Positions 351 to 18,560 of a stretch of DNA of 26,138 nucleotides are shown here, piece by piece. The stretch covers positions 134,775-160,912 of the forward strand of contig WELB01000012.1 in NCBI GenBank assembly GCA_009602725.1, in the 5' to 3' direction. Origin of the DNA: Spirogloea muscicola. Lineage: Eukaryota > Streptophyta > Zygnematophyceae > Spirogloeales > Spirogloeaceae. Positions within the stretch are counted from its first letter, which is position 1. Each line of letters opens with the position of its first letter. Below the pieces are notes generated by a model. It worked only from the letters and a program-made list of their open reading frames with translations. It made no database searches and was not told the origin of the DNA. The position numbers were made by a program, and so were the translations under genes.

Positions 351-363
351 TCCTCGTTGCCTA

Positions 364-1125: not shown

Positions 1126-1575
1126 ATGCGGCTCTTACTATGCCTGCAGCGCTTGCAGGCCCTGGCCTTCATCAGCATTCTGTGCACGCCATAAGGCAGG
1201 CCACTGGCTTTCGCAGCGGTGCTCCGGCTCCAAATTGATTAGCCTGTCCAACTTGTATGCGCTCACTGGGTACTAAGGCCTTCTCAAGCCGTCTGTCCAT
1301 TGCTCACTCGTGGGTACTGAGCTTCCATCTGCGGTCTTGTAGTGACTAGTTGTGTGGTTTTTCTTTTCGTTCCCCTTTGGCTCTTTGGACCTTGTCCATT
1401 CTTTTTCGGCTGGCCCTTCCCAGCCCCTATCTTCTATGGGAGAGCTCTTTCTTTGCCTTAGAACCTCTTAGCTTATGGAACTGCTGCGTAAAGCCCCGTT
1501 CGTTGCCTTTGCATAGCAGTGAATTGGCTCCTCTTGGCCTCCCTACCAATTATGAGCACCGCACGCCTTCTCTTG
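1126..1575 (+). mobile_element. LINE 3'-end copy (decayed C-terminus plus 3' tail)
   Basis: This is a 5'-truncated copy of the dispersed LINE tail, in the order seen elsewhere. Bases 1126-1210 resemble 8076-8160 at the DNA level (both encode MRLL....LQA/WQAF-like peptide, the expected end of the LINE ORF). Next come two CTCACT-(CG)-TGGGTACT blocks (1261-1275 and 1301-1320), the stem-loop at 1408-1425, and a block at about 1500-1575 whose reverse complement reads AAGGCGTGCGGTGC...GGGAGGCCAA, as also found near 7050, 7165, 8665, 8791 and 18320. No intact ORF remains. Confidence 0.65.
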
Positions 1576-1684
1576 TCTAAGGCCTTTGTTTCGTGTGGAC
1601 TCATTCTTTGCACTTCCTTGTTTATTTGTGATAACAGTGTGTGGCTCGATTAGGCAGTGTGTGGTATGCGACGAGCGAGAGCAG

Positions 1685-1807
1685 GGAAAGGGCTCGCCCA
1701 TTGAGGATAGGGGCTGGAAAAAGCCAGCCTAAAAAAGAATGAACAAAGGACGAGAAGGGGCCAGGGGAAGCACTAACAAGCACAAGAAGAAACTAAGCAG
1801 CTACGAG
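1685..1807 (-). mobile_element. LINE 3' tail fragment with stem-loop
   Basis: About 120 bp are nearly identical to 12003-12127. The segment holds the hairpin at 1712-1729 (GGCTGG/CCAGCC arms) and reads as a LINE tail on the minus strand. It ends at about 1807, exactly where the oppositely oriented LINE coding fragment begins, so two insertions appear to abut here. Confidence 0.7.
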
Positions 1808-2389
1808 CTTCGGCGGCGCGCGCATCGTTGCTGATGTGGTCACCACTGATGTGGTCGACCGCTCCAATCCGGGGCTTTCTGCCTCGCGAGCGGGCCATGC
1901 TGCGGCGAAAGCCGCTCGCTGCAAGGCGGCCAAACACGCTGATTACCCGGCTGGGGACGAGATCGTACCCCTGGCCGTGGATGTACACGGGGCTCTCGAG
2001 TCCCAGTGGCTCGACTTGCGAGGCGCGCTGTGTCCCGCAGGCGAGGTGAGCCGGCTGACTTCAACGCCGCTGGCTCATGGGCCCAAGTTTACCGCAAGCG
2101 GTTGTCAGTCTCCCTTTAGCGGTCCATGGCACACGCCTTGCATCTGCGTGCTGGCCGGGCTCTCGCTGCAGCCTCTGGCTTTCGCCAGGGGGATTGTTTT
2201 CCGGCAGCTAGTCTGTCGGATTTGAGGCTCCTCACTCGTAGCTACTGAGTGGTCCATCCTCCAACCGTTCTGCCATAGCGCTTAGGCCCCTCCGTCATTT
2301 GGCCCCTTCAAACCTTTGTCAGTTCTTTTCGGGCTGGCTTTTCACAGCCCTTGGCCCTATTGGGAGAGCCACTTCTTCTGCTACGAAGC
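1808..2389 (+). mobile_element. LINE 3' end: ORF2 C-terminal remnant plus 3' tail
   Basis: Bases about 1810-2050 encode a peptide like the tail of algal LINE ORF2 proteins: an Ala/Lys-rich helix (AAAKAARCKAAKHADYP) followed by EIVPLAVDVHGAL. The frame then shifts: at 2170-2247 another frame encodes SGFRQGD..PAASLSDLRLLTRSY and a stop, also found on the minus strand at 3050-2950. The untranslated tail follows with a CTCACTCGT..CTACT block (2231-2247), GGTCCATCCTCC, TTCTGCCATAG, the stem-loop at 2332-2349 and GGGAGAGCCACTTCTTCT. The frame change and loss of the upstream ORF make it a pseudogene. The LINE assignment of the C-terminus rests on recognition rather than a search. Confidence 0.65.
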
Positions 2390-2468
2390 ACTCAGTAACC
2401 CCTGCTAAGCAGCCTCAGGTCAGAAATACTGGGTTCCTGGAAGCGGGTCCCCTGGTCAGAGCCAGAGG
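2390..2468 (+). repeat. Dispersed repeat, copy 1 of 2
   Basis: About 79 bp beginning ACTCAGTAACCCCTGC are closely repeated at 12133-12211, including AAGCAGCCTCAGGTCAG and GGGTCCCCTGG. In both places the block directly follows a LINE tail fragment, so it may be target-flanking or a further tail module. Confidence 0.8.
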
Positions 2469-2700
2469 GCGCATGCAAGCCGGAGGCAGCTGCAGGAAAA
2501 GCTGGAGGAGGCTGCTAGCTACTCCTACTTCTGGGCTGGCCTCTCACAGACATTGCCTTACATTGAAAGACCTGTTCCCGAGCCCCCTTGTAAACCTTGT
2601 TTACCAGTTTGTAAACCTTCTGCATTTGGGAGATTTGCTTGCCTCTAGGGAAGGCCTCGCACATCCAGCGCCCCCTCAGAGAAGTAGTCCATTCCCATTA

Positions 2701-2795
2701 GGGATAGTTTTTCCGGCAGCTAGTCTGTCGGATGTGAGGCTCCTCACTCGTAACTACTGCGTGGTCCATCCTCCCCCGTTCTGCCATAGCCTCTT
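2701..2795 (+). mobile_element. LINE 3' tail fragment (left arm of an inverted pair)
   Basis: This 95-bp block is nearly identical to the reverse complement of 2909-3002 and similar to 2195-2284. It carries GGATAGTTTTTCCGGCAGC, the CTCACTCGTAACTACT block (2744-2757) and TTCTGCCATAG. Bases 2469-2700 between this and the previous repeat show no gene; an open frame running through the region is only a by-product of the repeats. Confidence 0.8.
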
Positions 2796-3050
2796 CAGAA
2801 GAAGTGGCTCTCCCAATGGGGGCAAGGGCTGTGAGAAGCCAGCCCGAAAAGAATTGACAAGGTTCGAAGGGGCCAAACTACGAGCTAAGCAGCGACTGCG
2901 GGGCCTTGAGAGGCTATGGCAGAACGGGGGAGGATGGACCACTTAGTAGTTACGAGTGAGGAGCCTCACATCCGACAGACTAGCTGCCGGTAAACTATCC
3001 CCCTGACGAAAGCCGGAGGCCGCAGCGAGAGCACGGCCAGNCGGCACTGA
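2796..3050 (-). mobile_element. LINE 3' end in inverted orientation (right arm)
   Basis: Read on the minus strand from about 3050 down to 2796 this matches 2150-2385 block by block: the C-terminal peptide SGFRQGD..PAASLSDVRLLTRNY with its stop, the CTCACTCGT block, GGTCCATCCTCCCCCG, TTGGCCCCTTCGAA, the stem-loop at 2827-2844, and GGGAGAGCCACTTCTTCT. The copy ends within about 90 bp of the TOM9 start codon. One undetermined base lies at 3041. Confidence 0.75.
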
Positions 3051-3077
3051 CGGCCTTGACCAGGGCACCCCGTGACC

Positions 3078-3108
<31 letters not shown>

Positions 3109-3110
3109 AG
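3078..3110. repeat. (CGG)n microsatellite upstream of TOM9
   Basis: A run of GGC/CGG triplets just 5' of the TOM9 start codon, typical of the GC-rich 5' ends of genes in this window. It is probably 5' UTR. Confidence 0.8.
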
Positions 3111-3140
3111 GCCGCTGCGGCCGAGGGCCCGCCGAAGTCC

Positions 3141-3829
3141 ATGGTGGCCCTGGCGGACGACTCGGTGGCAGCCGAACCCGGGCCCTGGCAGCGCCTGCAG
3201 GACTCGCCGACGTACCAGGCGTCCGCACGCGCCGCTGCCGGAGCCCTGACCTTCTCCAAGAAGGTGAGCGCGGAGGACCGTTGCCGCGGACGCCTCGCTG
3301 CGCAAAGTGATTGCAGGAGCTCCATCGGACAGGTCGGAGCTTTCAGGGGGGGCATCGTGGCCAAGGGAGCCACCAAGGCCGGTGATGGTAGCGGCATTGC
3401 CGGGCGCCATTAGCTCAACCACGGCGCTCGTCGTTTTGTCTTGCGGGCGGTCGAGCTGCAGAGCCCAAGCGGGCCTGCCTCTCACTGTCGTCAAGGGAGG
3501 CCGCAGTGCTACGAGCTGGAGTTCAGGGCTTAATCGATCGGCTCACCAGTGACCGTAGCATTGTTGGGCACGACTCACAATTGTCTCTGAGGTTTCCTTT
3601 GAAGGTCATACTTTTGGTGCTGCACCTACTCAACGACTTCCCGTACTCCCTTGCGCAGGTGCTGTGGAGCACAGGGAAGGCGGCCTGGATCGCAGGCACG
3701 ACCTTCCTGGTCCTCGTCGTGCCGCTCATCATCGAGATGGACCGCGAGCAGCAGATGCTGGACATGGAGAGTCAGCAGGCTGGCCTGCTGGGAGCTTCCC
3801 CTGCCCCAGGCCTGCCACTTGCCAAGTGA
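3141..3829 (+). CDS. TOM9: Mitochondrial import receptor subunit TOM9/TOM22
   Basis: Two exons, 3141-3263 and 3659-3829, joined in phase 0 (AAG|GTGAGC donor, TTGCGCAG acceptor), give 97 residues, the size of plant TOM9. The second exon carries the family signature: [20 protein letters not shown] (a single membrane-spanning helix, residues about 45-64) followed by EMDREQQ and a short, Leu/Gly-rich tail ending at TGA 3827-3829. In plants this tail-anchored outer-membrane protein is the short form of fungal Tom22; it organises the TOM pore and its docking sites. The cytosolic part (residues 1-44) has a few acidic residues near its start, far fewer than fungal Tom22. I chose the ATG at 3141 (GTCCATGG); the frame stays open upstream through a Gly-rich (CGG)n run, but without another ATG. 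A LINE remnant lies just upstream. Confidence 0.93.
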
Positions 3830-4684
3830 TGCGCGACGGCTGTGCCTGCTGGGGCCAGCGTGGGACTCAGACATACTCTGGTGGCCACCTGCCTGGCTTG
3901 ACATAGTGCCTGCTGCAATGGTCTGGTTAGTTTGAGGAGCGCTTTTGCAGGCGCCTTCTGTCACAATCGCAAAGCAAGCAAGTCAGCATGGCTTGGCATT
4001 CACTTGGGGGTTACTCTGAAGCACATCACGTTCAAGTGAGTCCCCCTCAAAATGGACGGGTCTCTAGAAAGGGCCTGGTCATCATGTTTGTTACTGTCTG
4101 CAGACATACTGCCAGCTCTTAAGCCTCTCCTACAATGGTCTGCTGATTCTGTGCACAGCTGCGGCTACTGACTACATGGATCGATGCGCACTTGCCATGC
4201 CAGCCCTACAGGACTGTACAAGTCTAAACAAAACATAAGGTATCAGGAACTGCGAAGTTGTGACACAAGTCACCTTCCAAGAAGACAACCATCTGCATTT
4301 GATATATCTCTGATTGACGAGTGCAAGTCACTGAAGGCAAAGCTATTGTGGGCCTTCAGAATTTCTTGCCTTGCATGCTTGCATTCCAATACATATTCAC
4401 AGTGCAACTTACAAAGGCAGTAGTCATGCGCAGCAAAATGCGCATGCTCGTCATCCACATTCGGCTACTTAGCCGCCAGCCTTCATCAAGCACTGGACAC
4501 ATTCCTATGCCTACTCATGTGAAAGCCTGGGGCTGGCCACTGGCGTGTGTGGTTCAACTGCTCTGCAACTCTGAGGACATGCCAGGGGACTGCTTGGGCT
4601 GGAACTGAGAGGATATGACTTTGGGAGGGCGTCGACTTTAAGTCACTGACGTAGTCGAAGGGGTGCCATAACAAGTTGCCGTCG
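3830..4684. other. Convergent 3' flank between TOM9 and the MAPKK gene
   Basis: I see no coding region here; the short open frames are unrelated to each other and to splice signals. It should hold the 3' UTRs of both convergent genes. On the minus strand a TGTAA motif (plus-strand TTACA, 4409-4413), the usual green-algal polyadenylation signal, lies about 270 nt after the MAPKK stop. I see no TGTAA on the plus strand for TOM9. Confidence 0.5.
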
Positions 4685-6654
4685 CTATGTATTGGGTGGC
4701 AGAAGGCGAGAGAGGTCAGCAGACTGTCCCTGGAACTTGAAAAGCCAAGGGTGCTTCAACAACCTCGCAGCTGTGGGCCTCATTGAGAAATCCTTTTGTA
4801 GGCAGGCATTGATGAAGGAGACGAATTCATGTGAAGAGTCAGGCGGAGCTTGTGGAGGATCGTTCATGACAATTGCTGAATAGAGGCCCATCCAATCATT
4901 CTGCTGGCCTGGTATTGCATATGGAAACCTCCCTTGCAAGCACTCCAACAATGTAAGCCCTGCCAAGACAGCGCCAGCAAGGAGATGGCTGCTTAGAGAT
5001 AAGTGATGCAATCAGACACCAGTGGAGAATCTGAAGCCTTGGTGACATCTGCAATGCTTGCATATGAAACCCACGGGCCGCAGCGTAGAGGAGCAGCTTA
5101 CCGAGGCTCCAGATGTCAGAAGCATAACCATTGTACTTTCCGGAAGTGATTTCCGGATTGATACGTTCCGGTGCCATGTAAGCAGAAGTTCCAACATATG
5201 AGTTGCATTGTGCGAGCGTGTTTTCCAGCATTGAGCTCACTCCAAAGTCTGCAATCTTGACTTCCTGCCTGCAATGTGCAGCAGGCATAAGGGCAGTCAC
5301 GCACGTGTCCTTCAACTAGTGGGTTCCTACATAATTGTAGCAGAGCAACAAGGTTGACTACCCACGACCTGGCTCTAACATGTCTGACAAAATAGTAGCA
5401 GTAGCATGCTTACCTGCGGTTAATGAGAAGGTTGGATGGCTTAATATCGCGGTGCACAATGTGATTTGTGTGGAGGTATATGAGCCCCAACAGCACTTGC
5501 TTCGTGACTTCCACCAAATATGGCTCTGGTATTTGGCCGTAAAGCTTCATCACATCTGATAGAGTGCCCCCGTCCATGTACTGTAGAACGTGAACAGAAA
5601 GGACACCATTAGCTTTATGTTGTATTGGTGATGCTATTAACTTTCTACTCTATCTGTGACTTATGCTGCGCCTGCATAGACAACCCAGGAATAAAGGCTT
5701 GGGTGTAGCACACTTATATCTGCAACAGAAGGTTGTCTGCATGGCTTGTCTTTGATAACCACTTAGTGCAATGCTTGCCTCCCACGCAACGTAACCTCTT
5801 GAGGCAAGTTACGGGTTTGACAGCTGTACCTCCAGCACAAAGGAGATCTGGCCTCCGACATCAAAAACATTGTAGCACTGCACAATCTGTTGGCAGCGAG
5901 ACCGCTGCAGGATCTGCATCTCCTGCACAATCTGTTGCCGAACTGCATCGTCGTGCTTGTTTGCAATCACCTTCAACGCATAGACCTGTCACCATAGCTT
6001 CGCACTAGTGCTCATTCAGAGAAACGCACAGCTCCAAGCGAAGCATATCGCATGAGGAGATACACTGCCAGATGAAGGATGCAAGCAAGCCATCAAGTCT
6101 TTAACCGTCCAACAAGTTGCAGCGATACTGCAGTGTCAGCACAGGCACTGCCCAGCCTGTATCTCCAAAAAGGACGCTCAGCGACTCTCCTGCAGGTACC
6201 TGTGCATATCTCTGCTGCTACTGCTGGACAGGTGCTGGAAAGGAGAGCTTCTAGTGGTGCCGCTGCTGACCTTATTGGTGAGTCTATGGCGAACTTTATA
6301 AACTCGGCCTCCAGCTCCCTGCCCCAGGACACCCAGCTTCTCCAGCTCGTCCAGCTGGACCTTGTTCACCCTTTCCGTCGTCAAGGCGGCTGGCTCTGGC
6401 ACGTGGCAATTCACCCAAGAGCCACTGACAGGCGGCAGCGGCTGCCTGTACCCTGCGTGGCCGTTGCCCGGAGGAGCCTGGGGAAGCGGCAGCGGCTGGG
6501 GAATGGGCAGCGGCAGCGGCCGCGGCACCCCCGCCGGCAGCGGAAGCGGCACAGGCAAGGGGACGGCCTTGGGCGCGTGCGCGGGCAGGGCGTCCCGCTG
6601 CGGCACGTCGAGCCTCAGCCCGGGGCCCTTGCGCGCGCGGTCGCGAGCCGCCAT
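4685..6654 (-). CDS. MAP kinase kinase (MAPKK, dual-specificity kinase)
   Basis: Five exons on the minus strand: 6654-6271, 5985-5830, 5580-5414, 5268-5102, 4959-4685. Phases agree and give 382 residues. The kinase domain is complete: Gly-loop GQGAGGRV (111-118), catalytic lysine in YALKVI (K133), [10 protein letters not shown] (223-232), DFGVSS (243-248), activation loop T253-x5-S259 with the plant-type MAPKK S/T-x5-S/T spacing, [12 protein letters not shown] (261-272), SDIWSLG and [16 protein letters not shown] near the end. It should phosphorylate a MAP kinase on Thr and Tyr. The N-terminus has a [10 protein letters not shown] stretch (residues 6-15) fitting a MAPK docking motif, then a Pro-Leu-rich segment (28-62). 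The start is the first ATG in frame (CCATGG on the complement). The intron-1 donor is GTCAGC, weaker than the others. The plant subgroup cannot be told by eye. Confidence 0.92.
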
Positions 6655-7020
6655 GGCCGCCACAGCTACCGGGCCGACGGCCTCATCGAGACGGAGGAGG
6701 AGCGCTCTGCCCGTCAGGCAGGGCGCCGAGCGAGGACCCTCAGCAGGGTGCGACGCGCTGGCTCGTCCAGAGACGGGACTGGCGCTGCCCGGGGACGAGG
6801 GGCCGTCATGGCCGGCACGGCGGGCTGGCCCGGAGGGCGGCGCCGGAGCGCGGCGACGCTACTCCGCGGGGCGGCGCCATGGCGGGCAGGCGAGTAGGGC
6901 AGGGGGGGGCTCCACGTCCCTCGGCGGCGCCTCACGCAGCCGGGCCCCTCGCACAGCCAGGCGCGGCGGCGGCGGCAGCGGCAACCGCGGCGGCGGCGGA
7001 GGAGGCGAGTACTGATCGGC
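6655..7020. repeat. GC-rich leader with CGG repeats upstream of the MAPKK
   Basis: This is the 5' flank of the MAPKK. It is very GC-rich with a (GGC)n stretch around 6962-7008. Long open frames cross it on both strands but only because of base composition. It probably contains the promoter and 5' UTR; I cannot point to a specific element. Confidence 0.5.
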
Positions 7021-7049
7021 CTAGTAGACGTCCCGACGAGGCAACGGGA

Positions 7050-7328
7050 TAAGAGTGGAGTGCGGTGCGCGTGGAATGAAAGGGAGGCAAGATTAAGCCA
7101 GTAGACTGTTCAGGCAAGCAAAGGCTAATCAGTGCACAGATTGGTGTGATGTAAGAAAGGGGGGGAAGGCGAGCGGTGCACATTGAATGAAAAGGAGGCC
7201 ACTACACTGTTCTAGCGAATGGAGGAGCAACGAAGTGGGGCTACATAAAACGGAGGGGGCTAAGGTAACAGGTGTGTATGCAGGCTGAAACGCAGGCAGG
7301 GTCGTCAGTACGCACGAGTGAGCACATA
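7050..7328 (-). mobile_element. LINE 3' tail remnants (two duplicated blocks plus ACGAGTGAGC block)
   Basis: Two diverged units (about 7050-7115 and 7165-7240) share GGTGC..GTGGAATGAAAGGGAGGC-like sequence and CACTGTT with blocks near 1500, 8665, 8791 and 18320. They are followed by GTAACAG and then CAGTACGCACGAGTGAGCACAT (7306-7328), the reverse complement of the CTCACTCGT block of other LINE tails. The same order is seen at 18320-18501. Confidence 0.55.
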
Positions 7329-7377
7329 AGGGGGTGTGCCCGGCCTGTGCGCCTGTACGCCTCGCCCACCGTCGTTT

Positions 7378-7424
7378 CGCTCTTCTGCACTGGCCTTCGT
7401 CCGTCACCAGATGGCAGAAGAGCG
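7378..7424. repeat. Perfect 11-bp inverted repeat (25-nt spacer)
   Basis: CGCTCTTCTGC at 7378-7388 is repeated in reverse complement at 7414-7424. The spacer reads ACTGGCCTTCGTCCGTCACCAGATG-like sequence with no coding sense. It could fold as a hairpin or be the inverted ends of a tiny insertion. Confidence 0.75.
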
Positions 7425-7498
7425 CTTGGCAGAGCACTATTTGTTCATCTCCCTCTAGGGCTTCGCCTGGTGTGATCCAATCAATTGGTTGCACTTAC

Positions 7499-7575
7499 TT
7501 TGCCTCTTTTTCTGCATCAAGAATGTACTTGGCCTGCCTCTCTTTCAGGACATTCGCAGCACGTGCCTTCTCGTT
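7499..7575 (-). other. Exon-like segment, coiled-coil peptide, unknown gene
   Basis: On the minus strand a 77-nt stretch lies between an acceptor (CCTGCAG, exon from 7575) and a strong donor (GTAAGTGC, GT at 7498-7497). It encodes a helical, charged peptide (NEKARAANVLKERQAKYI then LDAEKEAK) with no stop. The composition is exon-like and unlike the repeats around it. I could not find matching exons on either side, so it may be an isolated relic of a gene or of a gene fragment carried by a mobile element. Confidence 0.3.
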
Positions 7576-7902
7576 CTGCAGGATGGCGTGGACAGTGCAT
7601 TTTTAGCTCGGCTTGGCCCCTTTCAATCCATGCGTACCGCGAGCGCGTTCTCTGTTTCCTTCTTCTCCCCTCCGGCCGCGCGATTGGGGACCCGTCTGGC
7701 CGCGGCGTGGAGGGGGCTCTGCGGTTGAGCACCTGCCTAGCGCCCCGAGCGCGCTCAAGACCAGGAGGAGCCGGCACTCAAATCAAGGCGCGGTTGCCCC
7801 AACGCTCAGGTCACGAGCAAGCCACCAGGGGCGAAGTCGTTGTTCACAATGTTGCCCTTTCCTTCACCTTCGGCCAAGGCTAACCAAGTAAGCTTGTCTG
7901 CA

Positions 7903-8830
7903 CGTGCTCACTCGTGGTTACTAAAGTCCGGCTGCAGCTGGCTTTCGCGCAGTTGCCTGACCCCATGGGCAGAAGGCTTCGCTTCGTGAAGCCCCGTGCA
8001 TTGCTTTCCGGTCAGTACCAGCTGAGCCGATGTAAGATGGTCCATCAGGTTTTGGGCCCCGCCCTGCGTCGTGCGATGCGGCTCTTGATGAGCCTGCACC
8101 GCTGGCAGGCCTTCAACTTCACCAGCTGGCTGGGCGGGCCCTGAGCAAGGCCACCAGCTTCCTTAGCAATGCCCAATTCGTAGCTGCGTGGTTTTGCAAT
8201 TTCCAGCCCATTAAAAGGGATTCTAGTTCTTTTGGGCTGGCCTTCACAGACACCGACCCAATCTGATGGAACTTTCAATCCGGCTCTGCAAGCTAGCAAG
8301 TTCACATAGGCTGGCCTTTCACAGCCATCAGACGAACATATTGAACATGTTCTGACATGTTTGACCTGCATGTGCTCAATCATGGATACTCAATCAGCCC
8401 CCTCCCCAGCGCTTTCGCCCTGCTCCAGCCCCTGCTTCCTCTGCCCCTCGTATACTAATGCTTTGCTAGCCCCATCTTTTGCACTCTTTGCTCTTTCCGT
8501 ACTTAGTTCACTGGCTCGACTTTGGCTTTCCTTTCGGATCAGTGTGTCAGATTGTATTGCCGATTCTTGGGTACTAGAGTTTCCTTCTAGTTGTGTTCTT
8601 CGTTTCTTTTTTCTTTTTGTCCTTCCAGATCATCTTCCTTCCAAGTCTTTCTATTTTCTTTTTACGAACAGTGTACTGGCTTGCTTTGGCGTTCCTTTCA
8701 TGTATGCGCACCGCACGCCCTCTCTTTAATCAATTTACGCGCACCCCTTAAGTTCTCCCCCCTTGGCTTGAATGGCCACCCTTCCATTTCATGCGCACAC
8801 CGCGCCTTCTCCCTTGAGCGCAACCAGTGG
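7903..8830 (+). mobile_element. Cluster of LINE 3' ends
   Basis: The blocks of the LINE tail recur here in mixed succession. There is a CTCACTCGTGGTTACT block (7908-7922); a coding remnant (8037-8143, peptide like ALRRAMRLLMSLHRWQAF) homologous to 1126-1177; a degenerate hairpin near 8235-8250; a full hairpin (8309-8326); another TGCTCAAT-type block (8367-8391); and two copies of the CGCACCGCACGCC...TC block (about 8690-8727 and 8787-8815). A T-rich stretch lies at 8590-8660. At least two overlapping truncated copies are needed to explain the order. A similar block also occurs at about 7611-7655. There is no intact ORF. Confidence 0.55.
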
Positions 8831-9049
8831 AACTTCGCTTTTCTTCCCCCCGGCGTGCTATTGACGAACTACTTCCATACTCAGCGACCTTCACTGACAT
8901 TTTGACCCCCACTTTATTTGTTCGGCGACCGGCGGCAGCCCCCAGCGGGCTGGCATGAACGGAGTGTGTGTTTAGTGATGGAAGGCCTCAGTGGCCAAGT
9001 ACACTGGCAAGCACATTGACAGATGTGCATCACCTGCTGCTAAGCTGTG

Positions 9050-9170
9050 AAAAGCCCAGAAGGGGGCGAGGGCTGTGAAAAGCCAGCCCGAAAAGAATGG
9101 ACAAAGAAGAAGTGGCTCTCCCAATGGGGGCAAGGGCTGTGAGAAGCCAGCCCGAATGGACAAGGTCCCG
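9050..9170 (-). mobile_element. Two tandem LINE 3' tail fragments with stem-loops
   Basis: Two hairpins, 9071-9088 and 9135-9152, each lie within a copy of the GGGGC(A/G)AGGGCTGTGA(A/G)AAGCCAGCCCGAA block, separated by 64 bp. The second copy is near-identical to 2804-2850 (AGAAGTGGCTCTCCCAATGG upstream). Bases 8831-9049 and 9171-9387 contain nothing I can name; the latter is presumably the RPSA promoter. Confidence 0.75.
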
Positions 9171-9387
9171 CCCGAGGATCAGGCTATGTTACTAACTGAC
9201 CAGCCTTTAAATGGCCCTCCTCGGGGCCCCCTATGAGCCGTCCGATCTGCCCGTCGGGCGGTCGGCTTCGGGCCTCTGCGAGCGCCCAAGGGGCCCGCGC
9301 TTCGCGACAGGGGGGTTTAACACCACCCGAGTGCTATACTAGAACCCAAAGCACCCTCAAAGCCCCGCCGCGTCGGGACCGCCCCGA

Positions 9388-9466: not shown

Positions 9467-11582
9467 ATGGCGCTCTCTCAGAAGGAGGCGGACATCCAGA
9501 TGATGCTGGCGGCAGGCAGCCATCTGGGCACCAAGAACTGCGACTTCCAGATGGAGCGCTACGTGTGGCGCCGCCGCAGCGACGGTAAATTTGTTGCCGC
9601 TTAGAATCCACCTTCCGATGTCCATCGAGCTCTGCTAGTCGCCATCCGCATTCAGGCCACCTTGTCACCTGCGTTGTCATGAGGTTTGGTAGTGAGCAGG
9701 CTTTCCCAGTTTGTCCAGCGACGAGAGCACGACGTCCGCGTCGCCGTCGAAGCAGGCGCCCTCATGGCTCAAGCAAAGCCTGCGTGAATAAGCACAATCG
9801 CCGAGCAAAGCAAGAGACCGCGCACCAGGGCGCGGAAGCTCTCTCCAGGCAGCCTCTGCTGATGTGCAGCTGACAGCCGGGCTAGGCTGCTCGGCTGTAC
9901 GTGAGTGGTCAGGGGGAGCGACGTCAGGCAGCTCATGGTCCGTTCTACTCTCGCAGGCATCTACATCATCAATCTCAGCAAGACTTGGGACAAGTTGCAG
10001 CTGGCTGCCCGCGTCATTGTTGCCATTGAGAACCCTCAAGACATCTGCGTGCAGTCGGCTAGGCCCTACGGTCAGCGTGCGGTCCTCAAGTTCTCCCAGT
10101 ATACAGGCGCCCAGGCTATTGCTGGCAGGCACACGCCGGGGACATTTACTAATCAGCTCCAGACAAATTTCAGCGAGCCAAGGCTTCTACTCCTCACAGA
10201 CCCCCGCACTGATCATCAGGTAAGCGGGAGCACAGTTTTTCTCTTTGTCCAGCTTGCTATCTCTTTGATGTCGACCTGACTTGCGCCAACTGATAAAGGC
10301 ATGGAGGGGTATGCAGCTGTAGTACATTGTGGGATTACTGTTGTTTTTTGAGATGCTGCCAGAATGTCCTGCAGGGCACGTAGTCCATGTCTGTGAGAAA
10401 GTCTGTGGCCTATCATTAGCGGCCTCCCTCACTTGTCTTCTTGCCTCGTCACCTTAATAAGTGCATATGACTTCTGTGAGTTAAGCTACATCCAAGCTTT
10501 CTTTGAACCACTGATTCTGACGAGCCTCGGTTTTCGTGACTAAGAATCTTGCCAGTAAGCCAATGTAGGATGCATAAAGGTACACTCTGTCCATGGGTGC
10601 AGCCGGCGGCCGAGGCAGCGCTTGGAAACATCCCGACAATTGCATTCAGCGACACCGACTCGCCATTGAAGCATGTCGACATTGCCATTCCCGCCAACAA
10701 CAAGGGCAAGCACAGCATTGGCTGCTTGTATTGGCTGCTGGCTCGTATGGTCCTGCAGATGAGGGGTACTGTGACTGCTGCGCAACCGTGGGATGTCATG
10801 GTAAGTGGGGCTCATAAGCATTGAGGTCATTAAGTGGGTATCAGAGAGCGCTAGTATGGTACTCTAGAATGGTGATTGGTCTATGTTGTGAATGGACACT
10901 TTCAGTGTTAGCAATTTTCATCATAGAGAAAGTGTTTGAAAGCTGATTCGTGAGCGAATCTGCACTTGGGGGCATGCAGGTGGATCTTTTCTTCTACAGA
11001 GAGCCTGAAGAGACCAAGGATCGTGAAGAGGAAGGGGAGGCCGGTGCTGCACCAGACCAAACATTTGGTGGAGTTGCACCGCTTGATTATAGTGCCCCTG
11101 CCACTGGTGTGGCCCCGCTTGCTGATCCTCAATGGGATGCAGCAGCTCCTCCCGCAGAATGGGCTGCCTCGAATGCCCCTCCTCCGGCCGCGCAAGCAGG
11201 GTCCGACTGGACTGCTGCAGGTGCTATAGCATTTTCGTCAGTTGAGCAGTCTGCATGTGTGGCTTGCAGTCTGCATGTGTGGCTGCGAGCTATCAATGAC
11301 AATAGATGGCTGCATTGTATGTATGTTGGGTGCTAAACCAACCCAGCCCTCCTGCATGTGCTCAATATGGACGCTCTCTTCTGCGCAAAAGTTACCCACC
11401 TCATGACCACCTTCTTGTCTTGATTGTCTGTTGCAGCTGCTGCACCTCCTAGTGGGAATTGGGAAGCCACTGCACCTCCCCCTGCTGCGGGCGGTTTCCC
11501 TCCAGCTGCTGCTAGTAACTGGGACCAGGCTCCAGCAGCACCGCCCCCGGCATCTGACTGGGGGGAGCCTGGCGCCCAGTGA
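9467..11582 (+). CDS. RPSA: Small-subunit ribosomal protein SA (uS2, laminin-receptor family)
   Basis: Five exons, 9467-9584, 9957-10219, 10603-10800, 10980-11220 and 11437-11582, splice in consistent phases to 321 residues, a little longer than the roughly 300 typical of the family. The protein is a structural part of the cytosolic 40S subunit needed for its maturation. Diagnostic blocks are [20 protein letters not shown] (residues 14-33), [82 protein letters not shown], and MRGTVT..QPWDVM. The C-terminus (about 215-321) is the acidic, Ala/Pro-rich tail with spaced Trp residues (DPQW, AEW, SDW, GNW, SNW, SDW) usual in eukaryotic SA. The ATG lies in a textbook GCCACCATGG context. The tail is split by an intron between residues 273 and 274. 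I see no TGTAA soon after the TGA at 11580-11582. Confidence 0.96.
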
Positions 11583-11929
11583 GGCTGGCATACGGGTGCA
11601 TGTCGGGTGGGCATGTGTGGAGGGTGTGTCAGCACCTGGGGATTCTGCGATGGAGCAGTGCTTTCGTTTTCTGCTCATTTCTTAGTGCAAGGCCTGTCTA
11701 TCAGTCCCTGGGAAGACAGCAGGTAGGTCTGTCACAGACATTCAAGTACACCTTGAGAGGGTCGTGGACTCCGGCAAATGAAGAAAGTCACTCGTCTTGC
11801 CCCAGGTCTTCCTTGTCGAGGGTGCCCGCCGACCCTGTCAGCGTCCTTCACACTCACTTTGGGAGGTATCTGACCCAATTGAGCCCAACGAGGTAAGTTG
11901 CACAACCGATCGCCTTCGCCGCAGCTGTG
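11583..11929. other. 3' flank of RPSA, no gene seen
   Basis: No coding exon or repeat is recognisable. Short frames lack splice context. It presumably includes the RPSA 3' UTR. Confidence 0.4.
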
Positions 11930-12127
11930 ACGGTGGCCGCCAAGTGGAGAAAGGAAAAGTGGCGCTCCCAATGGGAACCAAGGGTAAGGAGAAAAAGGGG
12001 AAGAAAAGGCTCGCCTATTGAGGATAGGGGCTGGAAAAGCCAGCCCAAAAAAGAAGGAACAAAGTACGAGAAGGGGGCCAGGGGAAGCGCTAAGAAAAAC
12101 AAGCACAACAAGAAACAAAGTAGCTAC
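11930..12127 (-). mobile_element. LINE 3' tail fragment with stem-loop
   Basis: Bases 12003-12127 are nearly identical to 1685-1807, including AGGATAGGGGCTGG, the hairpin (12029-12045, here 17 nt rather than 18), AAAAAAGAAGGAACAAAG and GAGAAGGGGGCCAGGGGAAG. A further AGTGGCGCTCCCAATGGGAA segment at about 11958-11978 resembles the GTGGCTCTCCCAATGGG part of other copies. Confidence 0.7.
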
Positions 12128-12132
12128 GTATT

Positions 12133-12211
12133 ACTCAGTAACCCCTGCCAAGCAGCCTCAGGTCAGAGAAGCTAGGCTACTGGAAGTGGGTCCCCTGGCC
12201 AGTGCCAAGAA
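12133..12211 (+). repeat. Dispersed repeat, copy 2 of 2
   Basis: This copy matches 2390-2468 over about 79 bp with a few substitutions and directly follows a LINE tail, as copy 1 does. From about 12200 to the gap at 12414 the sequence becomes GC-rich, probably the 5' region of the following gene. Confidence 0.8.
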
Positions 12212-12413
12212 GGCCTCCCAACCGAGGGTCGACTTGTGCGCCTTTGCGTCGGTTGGGAGCGCCGGAGGATGGTGGATTTGTGGCTCACATCGACGGCCGC
12301 GCAGATCCGGCAACAGGGCCCCCATCTTGGCGCGCCGCGGCCCACGGATGGTGGGTGCCCGCGGGCCGCCCGGGCCGGTGCGGGCGGCGGGCGTCGCACG
12401 CGCCGGCGAGGCG

Positions 12414-12672
12414 NNNNNNNNNNNNNNNNNNNNNNNNNNNNNNNNNNNNNNNNNNNNNNNNNNNNNNNNNNNNNNNNNNNNNNNNNNNNNNNNNNNNNNN
12501 NNNNNNNNNNNNNNNNNNNNNNNNNNNNNNNNNNNNNNNNNNNNNNNNNNNNNNNNNNNNNNNNNNNNNNNNNNNNNNNNNNNNNNNNNNNNNNNNNNNN
12601 NNNNNNNNNNNNNNNNNNNNNNNNNNNNNNNNNNNNNNNNNNNNNNNNNNNNNNNNNNNNNNNNNNNNNNNN
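12414..12672. other. Assembly gap (259 undetermined bases)
   Basis: A run of N in a very GC-rich region. The length may be an estimate, so reading frames cannot be carried across it. It hides the start of the ARID-HMG gene. Confidence 0.99.
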
Positions 12673-15589
12673 GCGCCACCACCCGCCTCTGCCGCCCTCC
12701 TGAGCCCCGTCTGCGCCGTGTCCCCGCCCGCGCCGCCGCCGGCCGCGTCGTCGCCCGCCGGCGGCCACCATGGCGCCACACCGCCGCCGCCGTCGCCCGG
12801 CCAGTCCGGTGCCGCGTCGCCGCTGCCGGCGGAGCAGGGCCTGCCCCCCGGCATCCAGAAGGGCGTGGTCTATCCTGAACCGCTCGCCTCTCACGAGGCC
12901 GTGGTGGCCTCCAAGGAGCTCTTCATGGACACGTTGGCTAGATGTCACCAGCAGCTTGGAACCACGCTCAAGTAAGCGAGAGCGACCTGCACGGCCTGTA
13001 CTCATAGTGCCGCCGACTCATCTCCTTGCTGTGCAAAGGTTGTCAGCATGGCCAGCATTTCGTAGTTGTCTGCTGTTACTGGCAACATAGGCATACAAGG
13101 AGCTCCACTCTGTCAACAAGGTGCAGGACAGCTTCTGCTTGTCTTTCTGCATGTCTTTCCTGACCTTTCGGCACCTCATGCGATGCTTTATCAAGCTTTT
13201 CCTCTGGCATTGACCTGCTGTGAATGGTTGGGCAGATCCCCTCAGATGGGTGGCAAGGAGCTCGATCTTCACAAACTGTACAAGGAGGTGACAAGCAGGG
13301 GGGGGCTAGCTCAGGTGTGAGTCTCAGGAAGCCTTGTGGTCGAGGACCCACCCTCTTTGGGTTTCGCTGGTTCACTGCCTTTCCCTTCCTATTGAGCCAT
13401 GGCATGAGCCATGGCAGGAGCTGTGGTGCATAGATGCGTCTTAAGTACGAGCTCCGTGTCAGCATTGCAAGCATCGCCAGTCCCTTTGTTCATCTGGTGC
13501 TTGAGCAAGACGAACTGCAATTGAGTATCCCTCCACCTTACCTCACCAACTGGTTGGTGGTCTATCACAATTGACAAGACAATGGCCAAGATCACGTTCT
13601 TTTCTGTCTCCTCTGACAGGTCATAAAGGACAGGTTATGGAAAGATGTAACATTACCCTTCCATTTTCCCCCCACTCTCACAAGTGCATCCTTTGTACTG
13701 CGAAAGTACTACATGAGCCTTATCCATCACTATGAGCAGGTCTACTTCTTCCACACCAGAGGCACGCCTATACATGCTCCAGGTCAGTATCTCATATGAA
13801 CAGCCACAGACACATCTTCGTTTTCAACAAGGCCATGGAGCAGCTCATTGATACATACACAGTGCTTGGCAGGATGTCATCCTCTCTCTTGCATGTCCAT
13901 TCAAGTTCCAAGTGCAGACCTTTTATTCTCAGTGTATTCTCCTTGCAGTGCCTCCACCTACTCAAAGCCCGGGAATGTCTCAGCGGTCTCCGCTGGGTGC
14001 CTCGCCTGAGTTGACAGCCAAAGGGCTCCCCAGGCAGAGAAGGCGAAGATCAGATGCAAGGATACTTGGTGAGTAGGGTCCAAGTCTGCTTCTCCTGCAG
14101 CCACAGACGAGAGCTCATGCTCTACCTAGCAAGGATGCGCTGATGCTTGCCATGGAGTTTTACAATAGTTTTGCCTGTGTGAAATAGCACTGTTCCTCTT
14201 CTTATCTTATCTCGGAAATTGCCTCCTCATGTGCAGCAGACCCTGCTGAAGACATTGGCCAAGTAGTTGCTGGCGTCATTGAGTCCAAGTGCGACCATGG
14301 TTATTTTGTGATGGTCACAGTGGGGGGCGATAGGCTGAAGGGCATTCTCTACAATGCACCAGCCAAAAGCAAAGTCAAACGTCTGCTGCCTTTAAGCTTC
14401 TTACCAATACCTGGGATCAACCCCGCTACTGCCTTGGCTGGTAAGCAGCGTCGCAAGAGGCGTCGAAAGGCAGACATGCCTCCAAAAGATGTACCTGCTC
14501 CACGACCCAACAAGACCGGCTATAACTACTTCTTCCAACTGAAGAGAGGAGAGCTGAAGGAAATCAACCCAGGCAGATCTGACAAGGAGATTGGTCGCTT
14601 GATTGGCGATGCTTGGATGGCACTATCTGAAGGAGATAAGGAGGTAATATTCAGCTGCCACTATGGCAATAGATTCTTTCTCGTCTACTTTGGCATCCCC
14701 CAAGATCGTGACCTCCAGACAGTCAAATCAATATGTACAAGGCTTACATGTTGGAAGTAGCTGTCTTCATGGCTCAAGATGTCCGACACAGCAATACATG
14801 CAATGCTTCAACATGTGAGCCTTTATTGCGGTCGTGTGCAGCCATTCCAAGAACAGGGACGCCTTGACAAGGAGAGATATGACAAAGAGTACGCCGAGTA
14901 TCTGCACAAGCTGTCCAGTCTTGGACAGACGGGCAGTGATACGTACCAGCAAGCCATAGGGCCTGTCTCAGATTCAAGAGCAACTCCTGGTGTAGCTGTG
15001 GAGAAGCTTGAGACTGCTATTACCCCCACTTTGACTGAGGAAGTGCTGCGTGCATCCAAGGGAGACGCTACTGCCTCTGGTAATCAGGTACTATCAGTCA
15101 TCGTCACTCCTTGCAGACGCATGCATGATACTATGCACATCCCAATGTGGCGTTGACACTCTGATGTACCAGCATATCTCTGATTGATTTCTTGCTAGAT
15201 CTTGCAGAATGCTGTCTTTGAAGAGCAAGGTGGTGACCTGATCATGGCTCGATCAGTCGACACAGATAGTGGTGAGCGAATCTGTCTTGCGTCTACTTTG
15301 ACGCTATTGGTTTCCTGATGTTGTATTTGTGTATCAGCCAAGTAAAACCCCTGGTGGGCCGTCGTGTCAATGCTCACGTCAACAGTTCGTACTTGCACAT
15401 ACCCAAATTTGTCTAATGTACAATAAGAAGAGGATGGCATTGGATGATGTTGCAGTGCACCTTACCGGATGGTGCTCATCGCTTGTGAAGGCCTCTTCTG
15501 ATTGCTGAGTCACTCATTTTTGTGCAGACATAGGTGCAGGGGCTCCTGAATTCCCTGTGGCTGGGATATACGACTCTTCTTTTGCCTGA
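12673..15589 (+). CDS. ARID and HMG-box DNA-binding protein (plant HMGB9/10-like), 5' partial
   Basis: Eight exons are visible: 12673-12971 (5' end in the gap), 13236-13314, 13620-13782, 13949-14068, 14237-14643, 14842-15087, 15208-15271, 15528-15589. Phases agree and give at least 479 residues. After an Ala/Pro-rich start comes an ARID domain spread over three exons (about 78-180 of the visible part): MGGKELDLHKLYKEVTSRGG, LWKDV, SASFVLRKYYMSLIHHYEQ. Next is a region found in plant ARID-HMG proteins (IGQVVAGVIESK, GYFVMVTVGG.RLKGILY, about 228-262), a basic RRKRRRK cluster (292-298, likely nuclear import), and an HMG box (about 308-380; KTGYNYFFQLKRGELKEINP, IGRLIGDAWMALSEGDKE, then RLDKERYDKEYAEY). 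This combination is a nuclear protein binding A/T-rich or bent DNA. No ATG occurs in frame before the ARID domain, so the start lies in or before the gap. Confidence 0.93.
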
Positions 15590-16062
15590 ATAGTTTTCCC
15601 TTGTTCATCTATAGATAGGTGGCTGTTATAGTCACAAGGGAAGAGTTTATAGTAAGGAAGATCTAAGAAGTCAGTCCTGGAAACCCTGAGGGCTCGGCTT
15701 TCGTCTTGCCGAAAGCGCCTGCACAGCGCTTCCACCTGACAACCTCCCTCAAAGAAAGCCCTCTTAATCTCCAAACTTCACCTCTTTGCCCTTATGTCGT
15801 CCCACATCGGGCCCCTCTCCATCACGCTTTCTTATGCAGCTGTTGTCGCCCATCCTGCAGCAATTTTTTCCCTGTGTTAATATACTGCACGTAGTGGCGA
15901 GCAGCTGACACTCTCCGTTGCAGCTCTCCTCTCGAGCTTGCTCTCCTTCTTTTGTCTGCTTCAGTGACGGATTTCTCTGTGGATCTGTGGATTTGTGTTG
16001 TTGTCAAGCCATAAAGAAATAAATCATCATACCTTTGTCTGGGCACTGTTTGCAGCAGGCTG
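15590..16062. other. 3' flank of the ARID-HMG gene, no gene seen
   Basis: AT-richer sequence without recognisable exons. It contains an AATAAA at about 16017, which is unlikely to matter if the organism uses TGTAA. Confidence 0.4.
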
Positions 16063-16122
16063 GTAATTTCCTTCTCAGGTGTGCAATTTCCTTCTCAGGT
16101 GAGCAATTACTGTAACAGGTTG
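16063..16122. repeat. Tandem repeat, three 20-bp units
   Basis: Units at 16063-16082 and 16083-16102 share AATTTCCTTCTCAGGTG; the third (16103-16122) is degenerate and carries a TGTAA (16111-16115), a possible polyadenylation signal about 520 nt after the ARID-HMG stop. Each of the first two units resembles a splice acceptor (TTCCTTCTCAG|GTG), but no exon follows. Confidence 0.8.
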
Positions 16123-16916
16123 TATCATGGCAGCTAAATAGAGGAGGCAAGCAGTGGTGTATCTCAGCAAGTCAGGAGACTGAATATAGCTGGAGCATTT
16201 GATAGAGGTTGATGGAGGAAGTTTGTAGTTGCAGAAGAGTGCGGCTTATCATGTAGCTTCCCTGACAGGGGACCTGATCCTCCGGAGTTCTGTCATGCGC
16301 AAGGGCGTCGATGCGAGATGGCGTCGATAAGTCTAGATGAAGATAAATGCTGAGTACTAGCCTACGAGATACACAATCTAATCGAAGATATTGGTTGCTC
16401 TGACCAGCTGACATAAAGGACAGTCTGATAAGAGGTCAACAATAACAATTGTTGTCAGTTGTCTAAGATCATAACACATAAACAAGTCGAAATGATTGAA
16501 ATTTGACTATTAGCAAGCGTGTGTCTAGTGCATGGTAACCGGTTTTCGGTATCAGGAGTATCGTAGTGTCACTGTCTAGTTAAACCTGGCACTACACGTG
16601 CAAGACCCCCAATGGGCGGCCGCTATATGAAGTGTCCGATTGTTCTCGGGACAAGCCCGCACCTTTTCTGTGTTACGTGAGTTTTGCAAGCAATGCAGCC
16701 AAAGGATGCATGCAAGCAATTGATTTCGAAACGTGCACTCATTAATGAGCACAACACTCCAGGCGTCAAGAATTGCAAGAACAGTCCAACGTTAAGACTG
16801 CTCACCGCACAGATAGAACGACTTCTCGCAGTCGCAGCGGGTCCGCGCAAGGCTCGCTATGCGCGCACGCCGTGTTCGCCGGGCTCTACGCTCTCGCGGA
16901 CGCAGGCGCGAGTGAA
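16123..16916. other. Intergenic, nothing recognised
   Basis: No exon, repeat family or RNA gene is recognisable on either strand. Short open frames around 16620-16960 have no family resemblance and no splice context. Confidence 0.4.
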
Positions 16917-16944
16917 CGCCTACCCGCGCAGGCGCGGGTAGGCG
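16917..16944. repeat. Perfect 28-bp palindrome (13-bp arms, 2-bp centre)
   Basis: CGCCTACCCGCGC at 16917-16929 is followed by AG and then its exact reverse complement at 16932-16944. The centre GCGC-AG-GCGC is preceded by a related CGCAGGCGCGAG. It would form a tight hairpin or a symmetrical protein-binding site. Confidence 0.95.
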
Positions 16945-17300
16945 CAGGCGTGGCAGGAGGGTGAAAATTGCCAAGCGGATTGCCTGGCAGAGGTCGCGCG
17001 CCCCGACATGGGCTGGCCGCGGTGAAACCCTAGCGCTACCTTATAGGCCAGGTGCGGCCGCTGGTTGGCTAATCTGGAGGGCCGGCCTTCGTGGAATTTC
17101 CCGACCTGGAGCCGACTTGACAGTAGATGGTGGATTCCAGTCGTCTGCTCCATGATCCCCCCGACACCGCTTCGATAGCGCCCACCTTGACGGTGTTGTT
17201 GGTGGTTGAGGTGCTTGCAGATGGGCTTCCCTCGTTGCGCCTTGCACGGTCTTCGGCCGGATGGCGTCGTGCGTGGGGCCTGGGGCGTTGTAGTCGCTCC

Positions 17301-17390
17301 GTTGTTGTTGTCGTCCGCATTTGATGAGCGGTTGATGTTGTTGTTGTCGTTCGCCTTGGATGAGCGGTCGATGTTGTTGTTGTCGTCGAG
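17301..17390. repeat. 36-bp minisatellite, 2.5 units
   Basis: Units at 17301-17336 and 17337-17372 and a partial one at 17373-17390 begin with GTTGTTGTTGTCGT and continue GATGAGCGGT(T/C)GAT. On the minus strand the unit is a multiple of three and reads NNNI(D/N)RSS.A(N/D)D inside a 182-residue open frame (17468-16920), whose remainder I do not recognise; I do not call a gene. Confidence 0.9.
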
Positions 17391-17450
17391 AGAGAGAGAG
17401 GGTAAAGAGAAAGCGAAAGAGAAAGAGAGGAAGGAAAGAGAGAGAGTGGG
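17391..17450. repeat. GA-rich simple repeat
   Basis: An almost pure purine tract ((GA)n grading into GAAA/GGAA) runs straight on from the minisatellite. Confidence 0.95.
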
Positions 17451-17586
17451 AGAGAAGTGGTCCTCCATCCTTAGCGTGAATCACACACAGAAGTGTATGA
17501 CCCAGCCTAGGAAGCCACGGAGAGAGAAAAGTGGTCTTCCATCCTTAGCATGAATCACACACAGAAGTGGATGAGTCAGCCTAGGA
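17451..17586. repeat. Tandem duplication of about 74 bp
   Basis: The two copies begin near 17451 and 17523 (the shared CCATCCTTAGC is offset by 74 bp). They share CCATCCTTAGC(G/A)TGAATCAC, ACACAGAAGTG and CAGCCTAGGA with a few substitutions. From 17587 to about 18109 I see no gene or known repeat. Confidence 0.9.
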
Positions 17587-18109
17587 GGTGGAGTGATGTC
17601 AATTTCCTTACAGTGCATGACCTATGCTGAGCTAGTTATTTGTATGTAGCCGCCGTGTATGCATCTAGATTCGTTACATTGAATAACAGTAATCTAACAA
17701 AGGGTTTACAGGCTCAGCTAGTATTGCACGCTGTGTTCCATGGGAGCAGGTGCGCAGCTAAGTTAGCGGCAGAAGAGTGCCACCAGGACTACACGCCTAG
17801 AGGTCCAGCTTGCCTTTGATGGGGCATAGGCAGTCACGTTGGCACTGCTGATCAGAGGCATGGACGCTGACGGATGACATATCATAGGCTTGAGGTCAAG
17901 GTGATTGAAGCTGCTACTGAGGGCGGCTGTGAAAGCAAGCTGAGCTATATACAGAGGATGATGTTGAAATGACTTGTTGCTTAGCTGCAGGCTGGGCAGC
18001 TCAGGACCCTATGAAATACTCCAATGGGGAGTCAGATGAGTTGATAGGAGAGGAAGAAAAGGCATGCAGTGCGCACAGTATAACGGGTGGCCTACATATA
18101 TCAGTGCCG

Positions 18110-18560
18110 CTTTGGAAGGAAGAGAGAGGGCTCTTCTACAATGGGGAGTGGCTGTCAAAGACCAGCCCCAAAAAACTGTACAAGTTGAGGGAAGGCACTG
18201 CGGCTTTATAAGGCCATCCCGTGAGCGTCTGGCTCGTGGGGATGAGCTCTTCCAAACGGATAGGGTGGCTGTAAAAGGCCAGCCTGACAAAGAGTGGACA
18301 CGGTCAAGGGGGGAGCCAAGCCGGCAAGAGAGAAGGCGCATGGTGCGCATCAGAGCGAAGGGAGGCCAAGCCGAGTCAGTGTATACTGTTGTGGCAGAAA
18401 GTAGTGCTACACGAAGCAAAGCCTAGGCAAAGAGGCAACAGGGTAACAGAGAGAAAGCACAGCTGAAGGCGGTTGCAAGTATTCACGAGTGAGCACATGC
18501 AGATCAGGCGGGCTAATCTGGGGAGCCGGAGCAGGGCCACAGAAGCCTGTGGCCTTGTGC
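18110..18560 (-). mobile_element. LINE 3' tail copies with two stem-loops
   Basis: On the minus strand the order is: GCTCCGGCTCC and GATTAGCC (18530-18505), the GTGCTCACTCGTGAATACT block (18501-18478), the ATGCGCACCATGCGCC-type block (about 18400-18320), hairpin 18267-18284 followed by CCTAT..GGAAGAGC, and hairpin 18150-18167 followed by a similar GAAGAGC. The first part matches 1189-1275 well. The two hairpins lie 117 bp apart, so the copy contains an internal duplication or two stacked insertions. Confidence 0.65.

Follow-up and report, generated by a model that had tools for sequence, protein, structure and literature searches.

Hairpins in a window of the Spirogloea muscicola genome

A stretch of 26,138 nucleotides from the zygnematophycean alga Spirogloea muscicola (contig WELB01000012.1 of assembly GCA_009602725.1, positions 134,775 to 160,912 of the forward strand, hereafter the window) was analyzed for an 18-base hairpin, GGCTG-N8-CAGCC, that recurs between its genes. 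The analysis identifies this hairpin as the mark of the 3' end in a very large group of R2-type long interspersed nuclear elements (LINEs) of the genome. Host genes lying between the repeats presumably encode, judging from their translations, ribosomal protein SA, a protein kinase and a sugar transporter (9467-11583, 4685-6860 on the minus strand, and 18900-24000).

Ten hairpins listed by a first-pass annotation, nine of 18 nt and one of 17 nt, were all recovered as exact pattern matches (Table 1), and the strands assigned to them are consistent provided that the pyrimidine-rich loop marks the sense strand. GGCTG-N8-CAGCC matched the window nine times, whereas 100 dinucleotide shuffles gave a mean of 0.15 and at most 2 matches; the single GGCTG-N7-CAGCC match, at 12029-12045, is not significant on its own, nine of 100 shuffles reaching that count. 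With strand set by the loop, most copies grouped into families with common 3' flanks. For the copies at 8309, 18150 and 18267, blastn at E 1e-8 linked the flanks to none of the copies from other loci; when aligned, the tails of 18150 and 18267 tentatively resemble the family, as an older type, and an LTREY-like remnant lies upstream of the 18267 hairpin on the minus strand. The words CCCTAT and GGGAGAGC, described by the annotation as following the hairpin, are real, but they are specific to particular families: B-type tails carry CCTATCCTCAATGGGCGAGC after the hairpin, A-type tails CTTGCCCCCATTGGGAGAGCC and D-type tails ACCAGTTAAYCTGGCCGCGC. The LINE-protein remnant reported upstream is also genuine, as in the copy at 2332, where a coding end LLTRSY* has its stop at 2246-2248 and the hairpin follows 83 nt downstream.

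Linkage of the hairpin to LINE coding ends

Across the 153-Mb genome, a 111-nt query around the 2332 copy found 1,468 candidates; 40 of these were scored and gave 42 matches. Linkage to LINEs was then assessed from samples chosen by protein. With 260 residues from the C-terminus of an A-type copy as query, 150 matches were listed, and 40 loci were taken from these (20 from the top of the list, at 86-89% identity, and another 20 at 65-81%). All 40 coding ends had the hairpin 74-116 nt past the match end, with perfect arms in 37 and one mismatch in the other three. For another sample, the reverse transcriptase (RT) fragment at window positions 1-416 was used as query; 150 matches were listed from 1,054 candidates, those listed falling into groups near 99, 91, 70 and 62% identity, and 19 regions were taken, whose RT-anchored elements were grouped as lineages F1 to F5. 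One element, L045, had no stop located and was excluded; among the remaining 18 the hairpin lay 16-79 nt after the stop in 15 (F1 5/5, F2 4/4, F4 4/4, F5 2/2 and F3 0/3). As background, an exact hairpin occurred in 25 of 400 random 180-nt stretches of the RT-anchored loci. These results show the linkage of the hairpin to LINEs: it is a conserved part of a short LINE 3' untranslated region (3'UTR), as the annotation had proposed, at a near-constant place just before the 3' end of both long and truncated copies.

In these 3'UTRs the stop is followed by about 53-115 nt, the hairpin, and about 25-28 nt ending in CTTC; F1-like 3'UTRs measure about 100-150 nt in total. Many copies continue beyond the closing CTTC with a variable number of TTC or CTT units.

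Exact patterns were counted over the 153-Mb genome, with reversed patterns as controls. GGCTGG-N7-CAGCC gave 27,068 matches (control 49), in which self-complementary copies count twice; as 38 of the first 100 listed have a C that makes CCAGCC and so match both strands, about 22,000 distinct places were estimated. The N6 form gave 18,652 matches (control 28). Patterns of the flanks alone, with no requirement on the arms, recovered 1,603 A-type and 206 B-type tails (controls 0), and arms were broken in two of the first 100 A-type tails listed and in several others, as decay predicts. Many copies have lost their 5' part, in some cases (L057, L071, L002) up to a point close to the hairpin, and several sit within other copies; copy lists leave out L001, which is part of the window, and L005-L007, which repeat L002-L004. 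At L009, L004 and window positions 9041-9156, copies were seen within or directly next to another copy's hairpin or tail, often with CTTC-like sequence adjacent.

Element architecture and type of enzyme

Representatives of F1 to F5 have open frames of 1,434, 1,370, 1,316, 1,325 and 1,521 codons, measured from stop to stop and therefore longer than the true open reading frames (ORFs). Among the copies compared, those of F1, F2 and F4 share 99.3-100% identity and those of F3 about 93%; in F5, one pair is 100% identical, and the remaining region, L045, reaches 88%. Comparison of F1 copies, with lengths judged by eye, placed a common 5' start about 60 nt before a methionine and the total near 4.1 kb. 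The F1-like layout consists of a short 5'UTR, a single ORF (C2HC-type zinc finger, RT, zinc knuckle and endonuclease) and the short 3'UTR.

Pfam family PF00078 was found in all five ORFs (E 1.2e-14 to 3.4e-17), together with one weak zinc-domain match below the cut-off; by RT profile, R2Tg scored best, at 3.7e-11 versus 0.006 for LINE-1 ORF2. By motif, an N-terminal finger C-x2-C...H-x3-C is invariant in the five full-length ORFs, as are a C-terminal CEC...H...C knuckle and the R-x-D-x-V ... D-V-V-x-x-D region after it. A structure model of the C-terminal part had a mean predicted local distance difference test (pLDDT) score of 60, with 112 of 307 residues under 50. Its top seven Foldseek matches were all R2 proteins (E 1.8e-6 to 7.9e-4); against R2 proteins Z was 12.8-15.2, the next entry reaching at most 7.7. 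The hallmarks of the R2-type group, namely a non-long-terminal-repeat RT, a zinc knuckle with a PD-(D/E)XK endonuclease and an N-terminal zinc finger, are thus all present. Because the C-terminal model matches R2 proteins and the RT profile fits R2Tg best, the elements are classed as R2-type LINEs with a restriction-like endonuclease (RLE).

Other assignments were considered. Stringent-type L2 LINEs such as UnaL2, ZfL2-1 and ZfL2-2 have an APE-type endonuclease. No APE family was among the Pfam hits of the five ORFs at E 0.1 and the endonuclease is of the R2 restriction-like type, so membership in UnaL2/L2 was rejected and the kinship with UnaL2 envisaged by the first-pass annotation was not borne out. 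Dualen/RandI elements, with APE and RLE in one protein, do not fit either, as RLE is present with no APE hit. Nor are these R2 elements proper, which occupy one site in 28S ribosomal DNA (rDNA): flanks differed at the 40 coding-end loci and at 40 copies selected by their flanks.

Constancy of the stem and predicted folding

Fourteen tail types were aligned, ten from RT- or protein-selected loci regardless of their arms and four (1408, 18150, 18267 and L019) found through their arms, in which constancy therefore reflects selection. Eleven of the 14 invariant columns are the arms, GGCTGG and CAGCC, and the other three are upstream bases; the sixth base, G, stands opposite A, C or G, which leaves five fixed pairs. 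Two traits of stringent-type LINEs are seen, lineage F3 excepted for the second: short terminal repeats (TTC/CTT units) in place of poly(A), and a conserved 3'-tail structure (40/40 coding ends, 15/18 RT-anchored elements, 14 tails).

The statement that the arms are invariant and the loop variable holds between lineages, but not within the A family, where both decay alike; it was partly a product of selection, because the copies had been picked by perfect arms. In 40 flank-selected A-type copies (40 regions were taken out of 60 planned), 10 of 400 arm cells and 27 of 320 loop cells departed from the consensus base. Of these loop differences, 20 fall in one subfamily-diagnostic column, and 7 of 280 remain when it is set aside. 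Equal decay of arms and loop within the A family is as expected of dead copies.

No compensatory change in the arms, a check that had been suggested at the outset, was found over the 14 tails. Arms do not vary between the lineages compared, and compensation could not be shown because the stem is the same in all 14 tail types; with the stem fixed, covariation neither proves nor disproves pairing. Exact counts for pair 2, the only pair checked, gave 27,068 intact copies, 506 of GACTGG-N7-CAGCC (control 42), 574 of GGCTGG-N7-CAGTC (control 29) and 94 of the double form GACTGG-N7-CAGTC (control 65), that is 29 doubles after subtraction versus about 9 expected if independent, in counts that take self-complementary copies on both strands, ignore copy age and include some places in both single-mutant lists.

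B, C and F4 tails (z -3.9, -3.2 and -4.2) were predicted to enclose the hairpin in an outer helix, such as one pairing UGUUCAUU with AAUGGGCG; in the remaining tails there were no enclosing pairs, or pairs that shifted with the length folded. When cognate and swapped flanks were compared over 16 tails, the observed mean was reached in 3,787 of 20,000 permutations with free register, in 496 of 20,000 with fixed register and in 1,713 of 20,000 with one tail per group; against shuffled 3' flanks it was reached in 0 of 2,000. Combined, these comparisons are suggestive, at weak to moderate strength, of a predicted outer helix in some lineages only.

Exchange of tails and a lineage without the hairpin

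Inspection of 14 C-type tails showed that this tail follows three different kinds of coding end, including a B-like one in L122 and a D-like one in L051 (minus strand). In L030 an F4 ORF runs into another tail. Such chimeric ends (L122, L051, L030) suggest template switching or recombination at the tail. No non-LINE head was noticed in the C- and F-type copies inspected, in which no systematic search for partners among short interspersed nuclear elements (SINEs) was made.

The RT of F3 is 71-72% identical to those of F1/F2 and 65% to those of F4/F5, the identity between F1/F2 and F4/F5 being 63-65%. In trees with R2Tg (26-28% RT identity) as outgroup and sole outside reference, F3 grouped with F1/F2 (FastTree support 1.0 for the split; in IQ-TREE, Shimodaira-Hasegawa-like approximate likelihood ratio test 100 and bootstrap 60), with the root weakly placed. 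Since all three F3 elements with a located stop lack the hairpin, this is not universal in the group. The F3 tail ends in ATGCGCCCCGCGCGCC followed by CTT(T)CTC, with a predicted fold of an 8-bp hairpin and a GCGC hairpin. A one-base variant of this end, ATGCGCACCGCGCGCCTTCTC, had 1,053 genome matches (control 0) and was not seen directly after an F3 ORF. On the simplest reading of these sequences, F3 may have replaced the hairpin.

A putative template-recognition element and its alternatives

Several diverged lineages thus keep one identical stem, and 3' handles of this kind are already known elsewhere. Many R2 elements have a stem-loop in the 3'UTR, which is bound by the N-terminal extension (NTE) and RT domains (PMC12503042), and in zebrafish L2 the 3'-tail stem-loop is needed, elements with broken pairing being unable to retrotranspose (PMC4176376). 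In line with these precedents, we consider it likely that the hairpin serves as a 3'-terminal template-recognition element for target-primed reverse transcription, common to an R2-type LINE superfamily and sometimes swapped between its lineages. In the LINE RNA, the 5-bp stem GGCUG/CAGCC with a mostly pyrimidine loop of 7-8 nt would be bound by the element's protein, and the bound hairpin would place the CUUC end at the nicked target, from which first-strand synthesis would be primed; we infer both the binding and the placement from R2 and zebrafish L2, and recognition by the RT itself would likewise follow by analogy. Incomplete reverse transcription would yield 5'-truncated copies that retain the 3' end; truncation is seen in the copies, which explains why many hairpins stand solitary between genes. 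By extension of the precedents, enzymes of different lineages may also accept one another's RNA, given that one stem is common to lineages whose tails otherwise differ and are at times swapped.

Several observations weigh against such a role. Lineage F3, which groups with F1/F2, persists without the hairpin. The stem shows no covariation, so that its pairing in RNA rests on predicted folding, for which z-scores of ten tails span -4.2 to +0.9, and we infer the binding of protein to hairpin from other systems. The analogy with ZfL2 is imperfect, since stems there are exchangeable and specificity lies in the loop, but in the present elements a fixed stem carries a varying loop; the protein would here read the stem, the opposite emphasis. 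Duplications of the target site were found at the truncation points of L068 (14 bp) and L057 (10 bp), but the signal is modest, with 28 of 91 copies versus 314 of 2,000 mismatched pairs in a test that kept copies with a recognised 3' end; a first version, from which the L057 case is taken as it is absent from the later one, gave 18 of 40 versus 63 of 200. Eight longer copies examined had no clean duplication, and the window's own candidate, around the 9135 copy (9105-9153), is ambiguous because TTGTCCATTC within the repeated word is a conserved motif upstream of these hairpins.

Could the hairpin instead address the host's RNA machinery, as a signal by which a non-polyadenylated transcript is stabilized, transported or formed at its 3' end? 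No poly(A) tail was present in any of the 3' ends displayed, which calls for another way of making the RNA end, and the fixed stem with its UUUUC-like loop recalls the stem-loop of animal histone mRNAs. We nevertheless regard a host signal as unlikely: LINEs continue for some 25 nt past the hairpin, F3 manages without it in the same genome, four histone H4 genes (of eight matches) have no GGCT..AGCC-type stem-loop in the 260 nt after the stop, and no histone stem-loop was among the Rfam matches listed. On the last two findings, mimicry of the histone stem-loop was rejected. The same four H4 genes (L134-L137) had no animal-type histone 3' stem-loop within that distance.

Exchange of tails (two of the 14 C-type copies follow a foreign coding end, and the L030 ORF runs into another tail) and the decay of A-family arms, no slower than that of the loop, would also be expected if the identical stem were due only to descent or exchange and had no present function. 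This appears improbable, as all 11 arm bases are kept across RTs that are 63-65% identical (F1/F2 versus F4/F5) while most other tail columns differ, and if tails were exchanged the same core was retained every time. That the repeats are the ends of DNA transposons or miniature inverted-repeat transposable elements (MITEs), or a regulatory hairpin of host genes, could be argued from the many short copies in inverted pairs and can be practically dismissed: the pairs are separate copies, and the near-constant position after LINE stops, the 5' truncation, the TTC-type tails and the open RT frames all speak for LINEs. For the families examined, a DNA transposon or MITE was likewise not favoured on hairpin position and RT frames.

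Returning to the template-recognition element, a more specific possibility, to which we give somewhat less than even chances, is that one fixed-stem hairpin acts as a common currency of diverged R2-type lineages, with cross-copied RNAs and modular tails, and that F3 left this pool with a different structured tail. If true, the genome would hold a natural experiment on the sharing and subsequent loss of template recognition.

Relation to known systems

R2 elements of Bombyx mori, Taeniopygia guttata and Platysternon megacephalum resemble those described here in having a single protein with RT, zinc knuckle and RLE, and a structured 3'UTR. Unlike R2, which targets 28S rDNA, the copies here occur on many contigs and in varied flanks; their RTs share only 26-28% identity with R2Tg, and the 3'UTR is very short. 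R2-like elements without rDNA specificity have been described in Blattella germanica (PMC7650587), an insect host. Utopia, of the NeSL clade, has zinc fingers, RT, a zinc finger and RLE in one protein, a similar domain set, but targets U2 genes (PMC4640811); the text on Utopia there contains no occurrence of alga, Chlamydomonas or Volvox. A 3'-tail stem-loop is shared with UnaL2, ZfL2-1 and ZfL2-2, which differ in their APE-type endonuclease. UnaL2 ends in TGTAA repeats (PMC3747384), and in ZfL2 stems proved exchangeable and specificity came from the loop (PMC4176376), the reverse of the fixed stem and variable loop seen here. In green plants, 3'-end sharing is described for Chlamydomonas SINEX/RandI (Dualen) and L1-1_CR tail pairs, and plant L1 has a 3' hairpin with compensatory changes (PMC3747384); these belong to other LINE clades, their stem varies and compensates whereas here it is fixed, and the SINEX/RandI pair involves a SINE partner, of which none was noticed in the C- and F-type copies.

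The green algal LINE table of PMC3747384 lists L1, RandI and RTEX families, and further algal background is given in PMC8226300 and PMC10088271; as judged by titles and the beginnings of abstracts, none of the open-access papers listed in the searches described an R2-type LINE hairpin in green algae. The R2-type LINE group is a major repeat of this genome, and recognition of the 3' tail determines which RNAs a LINE enzyme copies, a matter of practical interest as R2 enzymes are under development for gene insertion (PMC12503042). Hairpin matches number in the tens of thousands in this one genome, which also has several long-frame lineages with a common stem, natural tail swaps and a related stemless lineage; setting F1/F2 beside F3 could help to find the residues with which the protein would read the hairpin.

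Other features of the window

The features located in the window are collected in Table 1.

Table 1. LINE remnants, hairpins and a candidate duplication in the window (window coordinates; hairpins on the minus strand given in sense orientation where marked)
Feature	Position	Strand	Basis or remark
F1-type LINE RT fragment (GTRQGDP, YADD motifs)	1..377	+	ORF 3..416; 99% identity over 125 aa to other F1 copies
LINE 3' end, own tail type; coding end LTRGY* at 1303-1320	1125..1455	+	sequence comparison
Hairpin GGCTGGCCCTTCCCAGCC	1408..1425	+	pattern match
B-type LINE 3' end, 5'-truncated, limits approximate	1682..1806	-	sequence comparison
Hairpin GGCTGGCTTTTTCCAGCC (sense strand)	1712..1729	-	pattern match
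A1-type LINE 3' end, decayed endonuclease coding region, 3' end CCACTTCTT	1797..2380	+	88.8% to L011 over -532..+46
Hairpin GGCTGGCTTTTCACAGCC	2332..2349	+	pattern match
A2-type LINE 3' end, 5'-truncated within coding end	2796..3040	-	sequence comparison
Hairpin GGCTGGCTTCTCACAGCC (sense)	2827..2844	-	pattern match
Hairpin GGCTGGCCTTTCACAGCC, without flank match or family assignment	8309..8326	+	pattern match
Hairpin GGCTGGCTTTTCACAGCC of A-type copy, adjoins 9135 copy	9071..9088	-	pattern match
A2-type 3' end	9105..9153	-	49-nt insertion (hairpin and 3' end only) or longer copy with small pre-hairpin deletion
Hairpin GGCTGGCTTCTCACAGCC (sense)	9135..9152	-	pattern match
GAATGGACAA, possible target-site duplication, ambiguous	two copies: 9095..9104 and 9154..9163	.	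flanks of 9105..9153
B-type LINE 3' end including end of coding region, limits approximate	11999..12207	-	sequence comparison
Hairpin GGCTGGCTTTTCCAGCC, 17 nt	12029..12045	-	pattern match
Hairpin GGCTGGTCTTTGACAGCC; tail tentatively of family, older type	18150..18167	-	tail alignment, no blastn flank match
Hairpin GGCTGGCCTTTTACAGCC; tail tentatively of family, older type	18267..18284	-	tail alignment, no blastn flank match

The F1 fragment enters from outside the window and ends near 377 with no 3' tail, its end having been cut or replaced by something; it is young, being 99% identical to other F1 copies that have long open frames. Tails resembling the F3 type, with the GCGC hairpin, also occur in the window at 1517-1574, 8669-8726 and about 18806-18832.

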